Shown one piece after another: positions 8,686 to 32,376 of a stretch of 33,419 nucleotides of DNA. A program made the position numbers and the translations under genes. Position 1 is the stretch's first letter, and the number at the start of each line of letters is the position of its first letter. The notes under the pieces were generated by a model. It ran no database searches, was not told the origin of the DNA, and saw nothing but the letters and a program-made list of their open reading frames with translations. This DNA comes from Candidatus Fermentibacterota bacterium (GTDB lineage Bacteria; Fermentibacterota; Fermentibacteria; Fermentibacterales; JCC-6): assembly GCA_003644925.1 (NCBI GenBank), contig QNDS01000007.1:1-33419 (forward strand). The letters are read 5' to 3'.

Positions 8686-9882
8686 ATGAAAATACCTTCC
8701 ATGAAGGAAATGCTTGAGGCCGGAATACATTTCGGTCACCAGAAGAGTCGATGGAACCCAAAGATGAAGAATTATATCTTCATGGCTCGTAATGGTATAC
8801 ATATCATTGATCTGAAAAAGTCGCGAGCATTGCTTGAAGATGCGGCAAATCTGGTTGCGAAAACAGTTGCCTCAGGGAAAAGCGTTCTGTTTGTGGCCAC
8901 AAAAAAGCAGGGAAGAGAGTGTCTGAAAGAGCATGCTATCAGATGCGGTCAGTATTACGTTACCGAGCGCTGGATGGGCGGAATGCTTACTAACTTCAGA
9001 ACGATCTCAAAAGGTATCCAGACTCTGATCGAACTTGAACAGGCAGAGAAGGATGGATACCCCGCAAGCCTCACAAAAAAAGAAATCCTGAGGAAGAAGA
9101 GACACAGAGAGAAGCTTGAGAAAGATCTCACAGGTATCCGTCACATGAAAAATCTTCCCGGAGCAATTATTGTTGTCGATATCAAGAAGGAACAGATAGC
9201 TGTCAGGGAAGCAAGAAATCTGAAAATACCATGCATAGGTATAGTTGATACAAACTGCGATCCGACAGAGGTGGATTATCCCATCCCCGGCAACGATGAC
9301 GCGATTAAATCCATATCCATGATAGTGGGAACTCTGGCGGATTACGCGCTTCTTGGTGCTGAAGGCTCCACTTCGGAAGCTGCGGATGCTGCAGCCCTGC
9401 AGGAGATGTCCAAAGAATCGACCGAGGAGAAACCGAAGGAAGCCGCCTCGAAGGTTTCCGAAAAGATCGAGAAAGAACCGGTTCCAGATAAACCGGTAGT
9501 GAAAGCTGCTCCTGAGAAGAAAGCTGCTCCTGAGAAGAAAGCTGCTCCTGAGAAGAAAGCTGCTCCTGAGAAGAAAGCTGCTCCTAAGAAGAAAGCTGCT
9601 CCTGAGAAGAAAGCAGCCGCTGAGAAGAAGGCAGCCGCTGAGAAGAAGGCTGCCCCTGAGAAGAAAGCAACCGCTGAGAAGAAGGCTGCTCCTGAGAAGA
9701 AAGCAGCCGCTGAGAAGAAGGCTGCCCCTGAGAAGAAGGCTGCTCCTGAGAAGAAAGCAGCCCCTAAGAAGAAGACTGCTGCTAAGAAAACAACAAAGAA
9801 AGCTGCAGACAAGGATACCGTTTCGGACAATCCTGCTGAAGAAGTGGATAATACCGAAGAGGGAAAGGAATCGGGTGAATAA
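8686..9882 (+). CDS. rpsB: 30S ribosomal protein S2 with long Lys/Ala/Pro/Glu-rich C-terminal extension
   Basis: MLEAGIHFGHQKSRWNPKMKNYIF...ERWMGGMLTNFRTI...NLPGAIIVVDIKKEQIAVREARNLKIPCIGIVDTNCDP; tail of KAAPEK repeats. Confidence 0.96.
   Translation: MKIPSMKEMLEAGIHFGHQKSRWNPKMKNYIFMARNGIHIIDLKKSRALLEDAANLVAKTVASGKSVLFVATKKQGRECLKEHAIRCGQYYVTERWMGGMLTNFRTISKGIQTLIELEQAEKDGYPASLTKKEILRKKRHREKLEKDLTGIRHMKNLPGAIIVVDIKKEQIAVREARNLKIPCIGIVDTNCDPTEVDYPIPGNDDAIKSISMIVGTLADYALLGAEGSTSEAADAAALQEMSKESTEEKPKEAASKVSEKIEKEPVPDKPVVKAAPEKKAAPEKKAAPEKKAAPEKKAAPKKKAAPEKKAAAEKKAAAEKKAAPEKKATAEKKAAPEKKAAAEKKAAPEKKAAPEKKAAPKKKTAAKKTTKKAADKDTVSDNPAEEVDNTEEGKESGE
9502..9789 (+). repeat. 16 tandem 18-nt units encoding KAAPEK-type hexapeptides (in the rpsB tail)
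   Basis: Directly read: aaagctgctcctgagaag and variants (KAAPEK, KAAAEK, KAAPKK, KATAEK, KTAAKK) in frame for 288 nt. Confidence 0.95.
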
Positions 9883-27597: not shown

Positions 27598-27627
27598 AAT
27601 AACAGTTGCGAAACACCCTCTGTTATT
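27598..27627. promoter_or_regulatory. 8-bp inverted repeat touching the -35 box upstream of serA-like gene (possible operator)
   Basis: AATAACAG (27598-27605) N14 CTGTTATT (27620-27627). Confidence 0.35.
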
Positions 27628-27654
27628 GACTTGAATACGGCTCACCTGTAGTAT
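27626..27654 (+). promoter_or_regulatory. Sigma70-type promoter of serA-like/membrane cassette operon
   Basis: TTGACT (27626-27631), 17-nt spacer, TAGTAT (27649-27654), in the 138-nt gap before the gene at 27716. Confidence 0.6.
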
Positions 27655-27715
27655 GCTTGATATCTTGGAATACGTTGCGAATCCTAATTCAAATAATGAA
27701 AACAGGAGGAATTAA

Positions 27716-28624
27716 ATGGCACGAGTACTCATCTGTGACACGGTTGCACAGGACGCTCTGGATGCAATCCGAAAAGGCGGTCATGAAGTCGTTGAGAAAG
27801 TAGGCATGTCAGTCGATGAGCTGATGGAGACCGCTCCTCAGTTCGACGCTCTGGTTGTGCGCAGCGCGACAAAGGTCAGAAAGCCCGTTCTCGAAGTAGC
27901 GGCAAAAGGAAATCTTAAACTTATCGTCCGCGGCGGAGTTGGACTTGATAACATCGACCTCGATGATGCTGCTGCGCTTGGTATTTCGGTACAGAACACA
28001 CCTGCTGCAAGCAGCGTTGCCGTAGCCGAACTTGCAATGGCCCACATGCTGGCATGCAGCCGTTTTTTAGGTCCCGCGAACTGCACGATGAAAAATGGTG
28101 AGTGGAACAAAAAAGCTTACGGTAAGGGCAAGGAACTCTGGAATTCAACACTTGGTCTCATCGGGTTCGGACGCATTTCAAAGGAAGTTGCAAAAAGAGC
28201 AAAGGCATTCGGAATGAACGTTATTTTCTTTGATCCCTTTATCGATGACGAAGAGGGCGCGCGGAAGGTTGATCTGGATACTCTTTGCAAAGAGTCCGAT
28301 TTCATCAGCCTTCACATTCCCCACAACAAGGAAACACATTACCTGCTTGACGCTCCTCAGTTCGATTTGATGAAGGATGGAGTGATCGTTGTGAACTGCG
28401 CCAGAGGGGGTACGGTAAACGAAGCCGCTCTGCTCGGCGCAATGAAATCCGGCAAGGTATTCGCCGCCGGAGTCGATGTTTACGAAGAGGAACCGGCCAA
28501 AGGAAATATCCTCGCGGAATACGAAAAAACCGTGGCTACACCTCATATCGGTGCAGGAAGCGCCGCCGCTTCAAAGCGTGTGGGCGCTGAAGTGGCCCGT
28601 AAGATTAACGAATTTTTCGAGTAA
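27716..28624 (+). CDS. D-3-phosphoglycerate dehydrogenase-like 2-hydroxyacid dehydrogenase (no ACT domain)
   Basis: LKLIVRGGVGLDNIDLDDAAALGISVQNTPAASSVAVAELAMAHML, LGLIGFGRISKEVAKRAKAFGM, VNCARGGTVNEAALLGAMKSGKVFAAGVDVYEEEP, ATPHIGAGS. Confidence 0.92.
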   Translation: MARVLICDTVAQDALDAIRKGGHEVVEKVGMSVDELMETAPQFDALVVRSATKVRKPVLEVAAKGNLKLIVRGGVGLDNIDLDDAAALGISVQNTPAASSVAVAELAMAHMLACSRFLGPANCTMKNGEWNKKAYGKGKELWNSTLGLIGFGRISKEVAKRAKAFGMNVIFFDPFIDDEEGARKVDLDTLCKESDFISLHIPHNKETHYLLDAPQFDLMKDGVIVVNCARGGTVNEAALLGAMKSGKVFAAGVDVYEEEPAKGNILAEYEKTVATPHIGAGSAAASKRVGAEVARKINEFFE

Positions 28625-28656
28625 AGAATAAGATCATTCAACTGAAAGGTGGATCC

Positions 28657-29907
28657 ATGCGGAAAAACTGGATAGTTGTTCCAGCCCTCATGATTCTCCT
28701 TCTGCTGCCTGCTTTGTCAGTTGCTCAGGGCGTTGACGAAATCTTGACACCAGCAGCAGAAGAACAACTGGAGGAACCGGATTCCTGGCTTGATGCTCCC
28801 GGCGCTGTTACAGTGCAGGATAAGGACAACGATGCGGGAGACCAGCTGCTGGTATCTTTCGAGCAACCGCTCTATACAGATGGTATCTTCGCATACAACG
28901 TTTACCGGCGTATTGTCGGGGAGGAAAACTGGAACCTCGTCAAGGTTATCCCTGCGGATGATCCGCGGGAGTTCATCGATGGTTACGATCCCGAGTATCC
29001 GATCGAACCTGGAGTTCTGTACGAGTACAGGATTGCATCTGTAACCGTTGATGGCGAAGAATACTTCGGACCCGTCTGCGAAGCCGGTGCTGTCTCTGCA
29101 GGTGAGATCTACCATACCGGCAAAACAAGGGTTCTTATTGCAAGCATCTTATTCATTGTTCTCATCTTCTACTACTTTGGAAAAGCCCAGAGGGGTATAA
29201 AGATGTACATGCGGCCCATCGCTGGTATAGAAGCAATCGATGAGGCCATCGGCCGGGCAACCGAAATGGGGAAACCTATACTCTACGTACCCGGGATTTC
29301 CTCCATCGCAGACGTAGCAACCATCGCCAGCCTCACCATTCTGGGAAGAGTTGCCAAGAAGATAGCCCAGTATCAGACGCCGCTCATTGTACCCAACCGT
29401 GATCCAATCGTATTTACGGTTGCCGAGGAAGTGGTTAAACAGGCTTATCTTGAAGCCGGACGTCCAGATGCGTTCGATCCGGATTCGGTCTTCTTCCTCA
29501 CCACCAGCCAGTTCGCTTACGTCGCGGGAGTAAACGGCATTATGATGAGAGAGAAACCGGCCACCAATTTCTACCTCGGAATGTTCTATGCAGAATCGCT
29601 TCTGCTTGCCGAGACCGGTTCCCTCTCTGGAGCAATCCAGATAGCTGGAACCGATGCAGTTACCCAGCTGCCATTCTTCATAACCACCTGTGATTACACA
29701 CTTATTGGTGAAGAGCTCTATGCAGCAAGCGCGTACCTTGGCCGGGAACCGAAACAGATAGGCGCCCTGAAGGGACAGGATGCCTGCAAGGCTATCATAA
29801 TGGGTTTCATTACATTGGCGCTGGTTTTCGGAATTATTGACGTTGTTGCAAACACTCACATCCTGGACTGGCTTCGTGACCTTGTTGCAAGTCCTATTAT
29901 GGAGTAA
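28657..29907 (+). CDS. Membrane protein with exported FN3-like domain and large conserved domain (DUF6754-like)
   Basis: Signal/TM N-terminus; FN3-like SWLDAPGAVTVQDKDND...YNVYRRIVGEENWNLVKVI...VLYEYRIASVTVDGEEYFG; TM VLIASILFIVLIFYYF; YMRPIAGIEAIDEAIGRATEMGKPILYVPGI; C-terminal TM. DUF number is from recall only. Confidence 0.7.
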   Translation: MRKNWIVVPALMILLLLPALSVAQGVDEILTPAAEEQLEEPDSWLDAPGAVTVQDKDNDAGDQLLVSFEQPLYTDGIFAYNVYRRIVGEENWNLVKVIPADDPREFIDGYDPEYPIEPGVLYEYRIASVTVDGEEYFGPVCEAGAVSAGEIYHTGKTRVLIASILFIVLIFYYFGKAQRGIKMYMRPIAGIEAIDEAIGRATEMGKPILYVPGISSIADVATIASLTILGRVAKKIAQYQTPLIVPNRDPIVFTVAEEVVKQAYLEAGRPDAFDPDSVFFLTTSQFAYVAGVNGIMMREKPATNFYLGMFYAESLLLAETGSLSGAIQIAGTDAVTQLPFFITTCDYTLIGEELYAASAYLGREPKQIGALKGQDACKAIIMGFITLALVFGIIDVVANTHILDWLRDLVASPIME

Positions 29908-29931
29908 GCCCACCAGAAAGGAGAAAGAGCA

Positions 29932-30576
29932 GTGAAAAGAACTGTTCCACTTATGATTGTAATGGTGGGCGGAATACTGATGATCCTGCAGTATTTTATT
30001 CCACACCAGATATCGCAAACCATATTCGCATACTATACGGACTGGACTCCAATAATTCTTGCGTTCGCGCTTGTACTCGGAGTCGGAAGCCTCACAAGAA
30101 TTCATTCACACAAGATACGGAGAAAAGCAAAGAACTGGCAGTACAGTTATGCCGTTCTGATACCATTGTTCGGGATGCCTATCCTTGCGCACATACTACC
30201 GCAATCCCTTGGCGGAGGCATGGATTCGCCCAGTATCTTCCATTTCTTCTTCATGCACGTGCAGGTCTCCATACAGGCGACCATGTTCAGCCTGCTTGCA
30301 TTCTACATCGCAAGCGCTGCCTTCAGGGCATTCAGGGCTAAATCGGCACTCGCCACGGTGTTACTGCTTGCGGCTGTGATTGTTATGCTGGGGCAGGTGC
30401 CAGTCGGAGAACTGTTAGGCAAATGGTTACCCGAAACGGGTCTCTGGATTCTGCGATACCCGAACCTTGCGGCTAAACGGGCCATAATGCTTGGTGTCGG
30501 GTTCGGTATGCTCGCAACTAATTTAAAAATAATATTCGGCGTCGAGCGCAACTGGCTCGGCGGAGCAGGGAAGTAG
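29932..30576 (+). CDS. Multi-TM membrane protein of unknown function
   Basis: 214 aa, about 5-6 hydrophobic segments by eye; GTG start with AAAGGAGAAAG upstream; 24-nt gap from upstream gene. Confidence 0.75.
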   Translation: MKRTVPLMIVMVGGILMILQYFIPHQISQTIFAYYTDWTPIILAFALVLGVGSLTRIHSHKIRRKAKNWQYSYAVLIPLFGMPILAHILPQSLGGGMDSPSIFHFFFMHVQVSIQATMFSLLAFYIASAAFRAFRAKSALATVLLLAAVIVMLGQVPVGELLGKWLPETGLWILRYPNLAAKRAIMLGVGFGMLATNLKIIFGVERNWLGGAGK

Positions 30577-31578
30577 GTGAGTGCCGTGAATATCTGGGAA
30601 AGAATGCTCAATATAGACCGGCGCTGGATCTTCCTTGGAATAGGGATAGTATCAATAGTACCGTTCTTCATCAATTTCGGACTGCCTGTGACTACTACAA
30701 TGGAGGTCGAGAGTATCTTCGACTATGTCAATGAACTTGGTCCCGATAATGCCATCTTCATCAGTTTCGATTTTGCCCCCGGAACACAGGCTGAGAACAT
30801 GCCCATGGCAGTTGGCGTAATGCGCCATGCGTTTCACAACGATGTTCCGGTTTTCATGACCGCGAACTATCCTCTGCATCATGGAATGATGCTTGCCGCA
30901 ATGGAGTATGTATTCAATCCAACTACGGTAGGATTCTATCAGGAAGTTTTCTTCGATGACTGGAGGGATCTTCGCGAGGCGGGAGTTACAGGAAAGTATG
31001 AGCTGATTGAGGCCTGGGAGAACCAGGGGAACCAGCTTCCGGATGGAGCTATGGGCTGGGTTTTCGAAGGCAGGGATTACGCAGCCTTAGGCTACGCTCC
31101 GGTCTTCAACCTTGTGATACTTGGAATGACCGTCTCCATAGAAACGCAGTACCCGGTCGATGCACATGGAAACTCCACCGGGGAAATGCCAATGCTCCGT
31201 GAACACAAGAGCCTCAGGGAAATAGACCTGGCTCTTACCAGTTCAGGCTCCGGTGCCTGCGTTTGGTGGGTCACCTATGCCCGGGAAAAGATAGGGCTGC
31301 CAATTGCTTTCGGCCTGACAGCCGTCATGGCTACGGATTACTTTCCGTACCTGCAGTCTGGACAGGTAATAGGCCAGATGGGAGGTCTGCGAGGAGCCGC
31401 CGAATACGAGGTACTTCTAACCGAGAACGGTATTACACCCACCACCGATAAGGCGTTCACCGGGATGGATGTCCAGTCAGCAGCACACATCCTTATAATT
31501 CTGCTGATCATAATGGGTAACATTGCGTTCTTTGCGGGAGGTTTTCATAAGAAGACCCTGCTTAAGGGAGGGAGTTAG
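30577..31578 (+). CDS. Membrane protein of unknown function with large soluble domain between two TM segments
   Basis: 333 aa; N-terminal TM RWIFLGIGIVSIVPFFINFGL, C-terminal TM HILIILLIIMGNIAFFAGGF; abuts upstream gene; start GTG AGT GCC. Confidence 0.75.
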   Translation: MSAVNIWERMLNIDRRWIFLGIGIVSIVPFFINFGLPVTTTMEVESIFDYVNELGPDNAIFISFDFAPGTQAENMPMAVGVMRHAFHNDVPVFMTANYPLHHGMMLAAMEYVFNPTTVGFYQEVFFDDWRDLREAGVTGKYELIEAWENQGNQLPDGAMGWVFEGRDYAALGYAPVFNLVILGMTVSIETQYPVDAHGNSTGEMPMLREHKSLREIDLALTSSGSGACVWWVTYAREKIGLPIAFGLTAVMATDYFPYLQSGQVIGQMGGLRGAAEYEVLLTENGITPTTDKAFTGMDVQSAAHILIILLIIMGNIAFFAGGFHKKTLLKGGS

Positions 31579-31581
31579 GAA

Positions 31582-32211
31582 ATGTATGATACAATAGGCA
31601 TCTGGGTAGGCGCCTTTTTTACGCTTGCCATCTACTCCTTCCTTTACAAGGAGAATCCCATCTACAGGCTTGCGGAGCATCTTGTGGTGGGCATATCATC
31701 GGGATATGCAATGGCCGTTACATACCAGATAACCGTGAAACCAAGACTAATCGATCCCCTTCTTAGCGGAAATCACTGGATACTCCTCATTCCTGGAATT
31801 CTAGGACTTCTGTACATAACAAGGTTCATTCCCAAGATATCCTGGTTGTCCAGATATCCCATAGGCTTCTACATGGGAACGGCCATGGGTGTCAGTTTCC
31901 CTCTTATCATGAAAGCGAACGTGCTTCGTCAGCTGGAGGGTGCCATGGTGCCCCTGTACTCAAGTGGCATGCCCTGGACCGAGGTTCTGGGGAATATCGT
32001 AATGATATTGGGAACACTCGCGGCTCTCATCTACTTCTTCTTCTCAAAGCCGCACAAAGGGCTGTTCTTCGGTACCGGTTCGAAGATCGGTATCTGGGTA
32101 ATCATGCTCGGTTTCGGCGCCACTTTTGGTTTTACCATTATGGGCAGAATCAGCCTGCTGATTGGCAGAATACAGTATCTGCTGGGTGACTGGCTGCATC
32201 TTATAGAGTAG
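31582..32211 (+). CDS. Multi-TM membrane protein of unknown function
   Basis: 209 aa, about 6 hydrophobic segments by eye; 3-nt gap from upstream gene. Confidence 0.75.
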   Translation: MYDTIGIWVGAFFTLAIYSFLYKENPIYRLAEHLVVGISSGYAMAVTYQITVKPRLIDPLLSGNHWILLIPGILGLLYITRFIPKISWLSRYPIGFYMGTAMGVSFPLIMKANVLRQLEGAMVPLYSSGMPWTEVLGNIVMILGTLAALIYFFFSKPHKGLFFGTGSKIGIWVIMLGFGATFGFTIMGRISLLIGRIQYLLGDWLHLIE

Positions 32212-32222
32212 CGTAGAAGAAA

Positions 32223-32249
32223 GGGGTCGGGCCTGAAAGACCCGACCCC
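32223..32249. repeat. Palindromic GGGGTCGGG/CCCGACCCC hairpin after the membrane operon (terminator-like or REP-like)
   Basis: GGGGTCGGG (32223-32231) CCTGAAAGA CCCGACCCC (32241-32249); no T tract follows. Confidence 0.7.

Positions 32250-32300: not shown

Positions 32301-32376
<76 letters not shown>

Follow-up and report, generated by a model that had tools for sequence, protein, structure and literature searches.

A conserved four-gene DUF6754 membrane module of Fermentibacterota and other bacteria and its genomic association with a GlmL-like ATPase and a putative barrel-sandwich adaptor

The protein family DUF6754 (PF20539) is a functionless entry which spans only a cytoplasmic domain together with its transmembrane (TM) helices, and neither of its two names was found in the open-licence literature to which our search extended, preprints and subscription papers lying outside its scope. 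The family GlmL/MutL (PF13941) comprises accessory proteins of glutamate mutase with an ASKHA ATPase domain, and in the systems of the ASKHA-type assembly proteins PilM, GspL and FtsA an actin-like protein is found next to membrane proteins. Here we report on a stretch of 33,419 nucleotides (the window; positions 1 to 33,419 of contig QNDS01000007.1 of a Candidatus Fermentibacterota bacterium, assembly GCA_003644925.1), in which a DUF6754 protein, A, is encoded ahead of three further membrane proteins, B, C and D. The libraries searched contain no record of a link between DUF6754 and B, C and D, or between DUF6754 and the two partner proteins described below, a long-form GlmL-like ASKHA ATPase (MutL) and a putative barrel-sandwich/SH3 adaptor (BSH). 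That a single inner-membrane complex has A to D as its membrane core is well supported, the proteins presumably being in physical association, and this core appears to work together with MutL and BSH. The system is new as a unit and may prove to be an unusual transporter.

An alignment of A against a genome collection revealed at least 577 loci encoding relatives, the best 80 of which were fetched; these stem from Fermentibacteria, Stahlbacteria/WOR-3, Zixibacteria, Cloacimonadota, Latescibacterota, Edwardsbacteria, Eisenbacteria, Poribacteria, TA06, CSSED10-310 and other lineages. Profiles of A, B, C and D applied to the fetched loci showed that the order A-B-C-D spans about ten candidate phyla, and B, C and D lie downstream of A, in the same order and on the same strand, for 121 of the 133 distinct A genes whose contigs extend far enough beyond them (123 of 136 before contigs fetched twice were removed). 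A single A paralogue of Fermentibacteria that stands alone (A2) accounts for seven of the 12 exceptions. Moreover, tandem arrays of the form ABCD-ABCD-ABCD are frequent, and in eight Zixibacteria-type arrays the closest copy to a given copy is the one at the same position in another genome (22 of 22 each for A, B, C and D), a positional orthology that is also seen in the tree, and the pairwise distances of the A, B, C and D proteins agree with each other (r 0.75-0.83). The block order, the positional orthology and the matched distances argue that A to D are inherited as a block, and the conservation of the protein families across phyla shows that they are more than chance open reading frames (ORFs). 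The first-pass annotation of the window had proposed that the proteins form a single envelope complex of several subunits with complementary topology, a proposal which the conserved synteny outside this genome and the topology described below both support. DUF6754 was detected neither on the plasmids searched nor in 14 well-known control genomes.

Some features of the arrays and of A2 were observed in addition. At six loci the Zixibacteria-type arrays consist of three ABCD units in fixed positions, such arrays are often followed by genes which by eye resemble pyruvate phosphate dikinase and acyl-CoA synthetase, and near two of them (L068 and L105) MutL is encoded on the opposite strand. One cassette (genome G050) contains an extra ORF of 165 aa with one TM helix between B and C (L028:4593-5090). 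A2 without B, C and D was seen beside GNAT acetyltransferase-like genes (L022:6029-7195 on contig C132, and L023:11869-13026), and in relatives A2 lies a few kb downstream of an ABCD module.

The four proteins A to D are all encoded on the plus strand of the window. Protein A (28657-29907; 416 aa) carries a signal peptide, a periplasmic FN3 domain, a TM helix, the cytoplasmic alpha/beta DUF6754 domain and a further TM helix. It is a clear member of PF20539, which it matches across residues 149-399 with 383.4 bits (gathering cut-off 27; E-value 5.2e-115), and this segment (29101-29853, plus strand, both flanking TM helices included) holds 31 invariant columns in an alignment of 25 diverse sequences. 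The AlphaFold model of A, with a predicted local distance difference test score (pLDDT) of 85.7, contains a six-stranded alpha/beta domain between TM helices, and the FN3 domain was identified by Foldseek (best matches 1.6e-5); this domain is missing from distant A members and from the A of locus L143. The list of fold matches to A was filled by FN3 domains and assigns no fold to DUF6754 itself. Protein B (29932-30576; 214 aa) has approximately six TM helices (5-6 by simple hydropathy) and, joining TM4 to TM5, a loop with the conserved sequence (S)AAFRAFR. Protein C (30577-31578; 333 aa) consists of one periplasmic alpha/beta domain between two TM helices; its model is of high scores (pLDDT 90.7; predicted template modelling score 0.86), and a fold search gave no PDB match at E<=0.001. 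Glu73 of C is invariant. C probably starts at the GTG at 30586 (MNIWERM...) rather than at 30577, judging from relatives which begin with MNIW, and the gap between B and C would then become 9 nt. Protein D (31582-32211; 209 aa) is a protein of four to five TM helices (3-5 by hydropathy). By counts following the positive-inside rule, the domain of A is cytoplasmic (116 for, 0 against), while that of C lies outside (98 of 123 by TM1 and 108 of 123 by TM2).

Searches of Pfam and NCBIfam assigned B, C and D to no family, sequence and profile searches of the PDB with all four proteins returned only the FN3 domain of A, and none of the four could be matched with confidence to a transporter or secretion system already described, B and D having been compared by sequence profile only. 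Homology between A and C and between B and D was considered and found no support (hhalign probability approximately 2%); the domains of A and C look alike by eye in their final beta-alpha-beta-alpha stretch, a likeness which hhalign did not support. Much of what had been read from the letters of the window was thereby borne out: ORF coordinates agree with the order and sizes of A to D and of the serA-like gene S ahead of them and with the gaps S-A, A-B, B-C and C-D of 32, 24, 0 and 3 nt; the proposed DUF6754-like domain and the exported FN3-like domain were recovered by Pfam and by the structural model, respectively; B and D are polytopic and C is a single domain between two TM helices; and the absence of a characterised function agrees with the missing family matches of B, C and D and with the functionless state of DUF6754. 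A separate observation concerns five Cloacimonadota loci and the locus L035, in which A is enlarged to about 920-1000 aa by a long extra N-terminal part.

The partners of the module became apparent from a sample of 104 genomes (G042-G145), one per family. A is present in 23 of them; BSH was found in 20 of these 23 and in 0 of the 81 others (Fisher's test, p=1.4e-18), and the long MutL in 20 of 23 and in 1 of 81 (p=2.8e-17), values for which the test treats families as independent, several of which may belong to one phylum. The sole genome with MutL and without A, G128, carries D, and D occurs in all 23 A-bearing genomes and additionally in G128 and G134. In several genomes (among them G045, G101 and G131) the genes of the system are spread over separate contigs and all are retained, which argues that the association exceeds physical linkage. 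G099 and G118 contain ABCD modules (loci L132 and L133), and no MutL and no BSH was detected in these two genomes; the module would there be powered by something else or put to another use.

The source genome is a draft of 3.6 Mb in 492 contigs, the window being contig C7, and linkage is readable only inside contigs; the closest named relatives are Candidatus Fermentibacteria (91% identity across 292 columns). The GlmL-like ATPase, the BSH adaptor and a paralogous ABCD operon are encoded on other contigs and hence outside the window, and the ATPase and the adaptor are the most informative parts of the system. The second operon is distributed over locus L021 (contig C78) and locus L122 (contig C127) and comprises gcvP, E0, c13, MutL (split by the contig end), BSH, A-B-C-D, a TonB receptor, ExbB, two ExbD and TonB; only the end of the GlmL-like MutL lies upstream of BSH in L021, the start being on L122, and BSH is there a protein of about 375 aa upstream of ABCD. 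The string c13-MutL-BSH-ABCD is present, whole or mostly, at eight loci. In Fermentibacteria a fused MutL-BSH protein of 920-1046 aa occurs, which in L026 scores 260 bits for MutL, gives a borderline RnfC_N match and lies directly 3' of D, and which lies near ABCD at four further loci. The source genome itself encodes such a fusion of about 1000 aa (L121:1923-5060, contig C107), a candidate partner of the ABCD module of the window.

Most copies of MutL, BSH and c13 are without TM helices. The ASKHA phosphate-1, phosphate-2 and adenosine motifs are kept in nearly all 37 MutL copies, the fused ones included; they are degenerate in L138 (G101), and one truncated copy in L131 is without the first motif. 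The phosphate motif of MutL reads DxGSTTTK. BSH is composed of a putative N-terminal barrel-sandwich region, a separate conserved domain and a KOW/SH3-like tail with a weak match. The barrel-sandwich assignment is borderline, with RnfC_N scores of 19.1, 24.8 and 26.2 bits around the cut-off of 25.6 and no match for the copy in L024, and PDB sequence and profile searches with BSH gave only weak, chance-level KOW/RraA-like matches. BSH (its borderline RnfC_N match aside), c13 and E0 match no curated family. E0 is a small conserved membrane protein with an ...LLSPF...RL..FRG... motif, encoded upstream of c13 (L100:3335-3781, L035:15012-15452, L033:7842-8288 and L122:1697-2185); it is PH-like by eye and has no Pfam match.

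From these data we tentatively favor an ATP-driven inner-membrane transport machine, which in some lineages would be coupled to a TonB receptor. Three findings favor transport: soluble domains are found on both sides of the membrane, the ATP site of the ATPase is intact, and at least three lineages encode TonB receptors or ExbB in the gene string of the module (12 loci with one of them within 9 kb on the same strand). MutL would bind and, as its conserved motifs suggest, hydrolyse ATP in the cytoplasm; BSH would link MutL to the cytoplasmic alpha/beta domain of A; and the motion might reach the alpha/beta domain of C in the periplasm through the polytopic proteins B and D, so that a cycle would carry a solute or a lipid-linked substrate over the inner membrane. 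In several diderm lineages the TonB receptor together with ExbB/ExbD/TonB may extend the path over the outer membrane, and the tandem ABCD copies in fixed positions may be parallel units differing in specificity. A broader claim, that the system represents a new class of ATP-driven membrane machine, built from an ASKHA ATPase, a barrel-sandwich adaptor and alpha/beta domains on both sides of the membrane and unrelated to ABC, P-type, F-type and TonB systems, is put forward with considerable doubt.

Several points weigh against the transport machine. A to D are without sequence or fold likeness to known transporters (the fold search covering A and C), and contact among A to D, MutL and BSH is deduced from their genes. 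BSH is absent from three of the A-bearing genomes and MutL from three, partly different ones, so that some carriers may do without MutL-BSH or use a substitute. Most ABCD neighbourhoods are without TonB genes, and the neighbours name no substrate and also include genes for polysaccharide export (SLBB), M23 peptidase and GcvP.

These neighbours lead to a serious rival, in which A to D would form an enzyme complex of the membrane devoted to envelope glycans or lipids, with catalytic domains in A and C, a lipid-linked substrate held by B and D and ATP-driven activation provided by MutL-BSH. Both soluble domains, that of A and that of C, are predicted to have an alternating alpha/beta architecture, the family alignments contain invariant charged residues, many in A and fewer in C, and SLBB polysaccharide-export genes directly 5' of A (L051 and L094), the M23 peptidase gene that precedes the module in Cloacimonadota and, in the window, a glycosyltransferase gene downstream of it would all fit such an enzyme. 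However, no known enzyme family is matched and, unlike MutL and BSH, these neighbours vary among phyla, and we regard the enzyme complex as rather unlikely. Still less probable is a transducer of force or signals over the envelope, motor-, TonB- or motility-like, by which no solute would be moved: an ASKHA ATPase of the actin/Hsp70 class, the occurrence of ExbB/ExbD/TonB in the ABCD string of Fermentibacteria and Stahlbacteria/WOR-3 and the periplasmic FN3 domain of A are consistent with it, but ExbB was seen in just 7 loci, no linked motor or pilus component was found and the distant A members dispense with FN3.

Two further explanations take the metabolic neighbours or homologues at face value. 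MutL matches PF13941 and the GlmL models, and it could accordingly be a true GlmL in a module serving a B12-dependent mutase. Its scores of 221.9 bits with NF040745 (cut-off 475) and of 150.3 with TIGR01319 (cut-off 204), and those of the fused MutL-BSH (144.1 and 96.9), lie far below the cut-offs, and none of the carrier genomes searched contains glutamate mutase GlmE (PF06368); the only genome with GlmE, G119, has no ABCD, contains a short GlmL adjoining GlmE and served as positive control. The sub-cut-off scores and the absence of GlmE contradict a role of MutL as glutamate-mutase accessory, and no mutase was found among the scanned neighbours, other B12 mutases not having been searched genome-wide, which leaves a mutase module scarcely credible. 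Nothing relevant on GlmL together with TonB or Chloroflexi was found in the open-licence literature. The other explanation, SerA and ABCD as one unit for serine/glycine metabolism, draws on the SerA-like gene directly 5' of A in Fermentibacteria loci of the window type and on GcvPB near c13-MutL-BSH-ABCD in several lineages; it is very unlikely, since outside Fermentibacteria the SerA-like gene is non-adjacent and most neighbourhoods are without GcvPB. Glycine dehydrogenase (GcvPB) genes were observed near c13-MutL-BSH-ABCD or near ABCD alone at nine loci.

The SerA-like gene itself, S (27716-28624, plus strand, 302 aa), encodes a D-2-hydroxyacid dehydrogenase without an ACT domain, as indicated by the Pfam domains 2-Hacid_dh and 2-Hacid_dh_C, which agree with the identity initially assigned to it; with the PGDH equivalog model it scores 341.5 bits (cut-off 454). 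S lies directly 5' of A only in Fermentibacteria, where it is the last gene of the conserved string pcrA-tal-tktN-tktC-serA, and outside this group a serA-like gene was found within 9 kb of ABCD once (L056), non-adjacent. S is a local neighbour outside the machine, and its initial inclusion in the same operon does not extend to a membership in the system. The promoter read at 27626-27654 (TTGACT-17-TAGTAT, plus strand) is present as a motif with a 9/12 match; sites of this type number 7 in the region and 7.6 are expected from shuffles, and it was rejected as operon evidence because its frequency is that of chance. The hairpin GGGGTCGGG/CCCGACCCC 3' of D (32223-32249, no strand assigned), which had been taken to close the operon, is real and occurs once in this genome; no T-run follows on the plus strand, and a scan scores it as a terminator only on the minus strand. 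A tRNA-Phe gene (32301-32376) lies downstream of the ABCD module and the hairpin. Elsewhere in the window, the gene for ribosomal protein S2 (8686-9882) encodes a long C-terminal Lys/Ala/Pro repeat tail (EKKAAPEKKAAP...).

A fixed-order module that is found in many deep-branching and mostly uncultured phyla, often in several copies, must serve something the cells depend on, and only one of its four core parts, A, belongs to a numbered family, which is functionless. By co-occurrence, fusion and gene order, what had been a set of hypothetical proteins becomes a defined system of six parts, amenable to expression and testing, and the long GlmL-like proteins gain a likely role other than that of a glutamate-mutase accessory. 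If the proposal is true, a new class of machine occurs in about one fifth of the bacterial families sampled.

Compared with described systems, the long MutL has the ASKHA ATPase domain and the ATP-site motifs in common with GlmL, and it differs by a C-terminal extension or a fused BSH and by occurring with ABCD and without glutamate mutase. The N-terminal part of BSH, also in the MutL-BSH fusion, is borderline to RnfC_N and NQRA_N of RnfC and NqrA, its barrel-sandwich scores lying about the Pfam cut-off, and no further RnfC domain was found in the BSH proteins scanned. While an actin-like protein also stands next to membrane proteins in the PilM, GspL and FtsA systems, no pilus or secretion partners were found in the ABCD neighbourhoods and A to D have no sequence match to those systems. 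A to D likewise match none of ExbB, ExbD, TonB and the TonB receptor, the TonB genes being separate neighbours in some lineages. The division of labour that we propose resembles that of ATP-driven importers which act with TonB receptors, such as the ABC importers of vitamin B12 uptake, in that an outer-membrane TonB receptor, an inner-membrane core, a cytoplasmic ATPase and a periplasmic binding domain would cooperate; however, neither an ABC ATPase nor a known permease is present here, the ATPase belongs to the ASKHA class and the membrane subunits have no known match.

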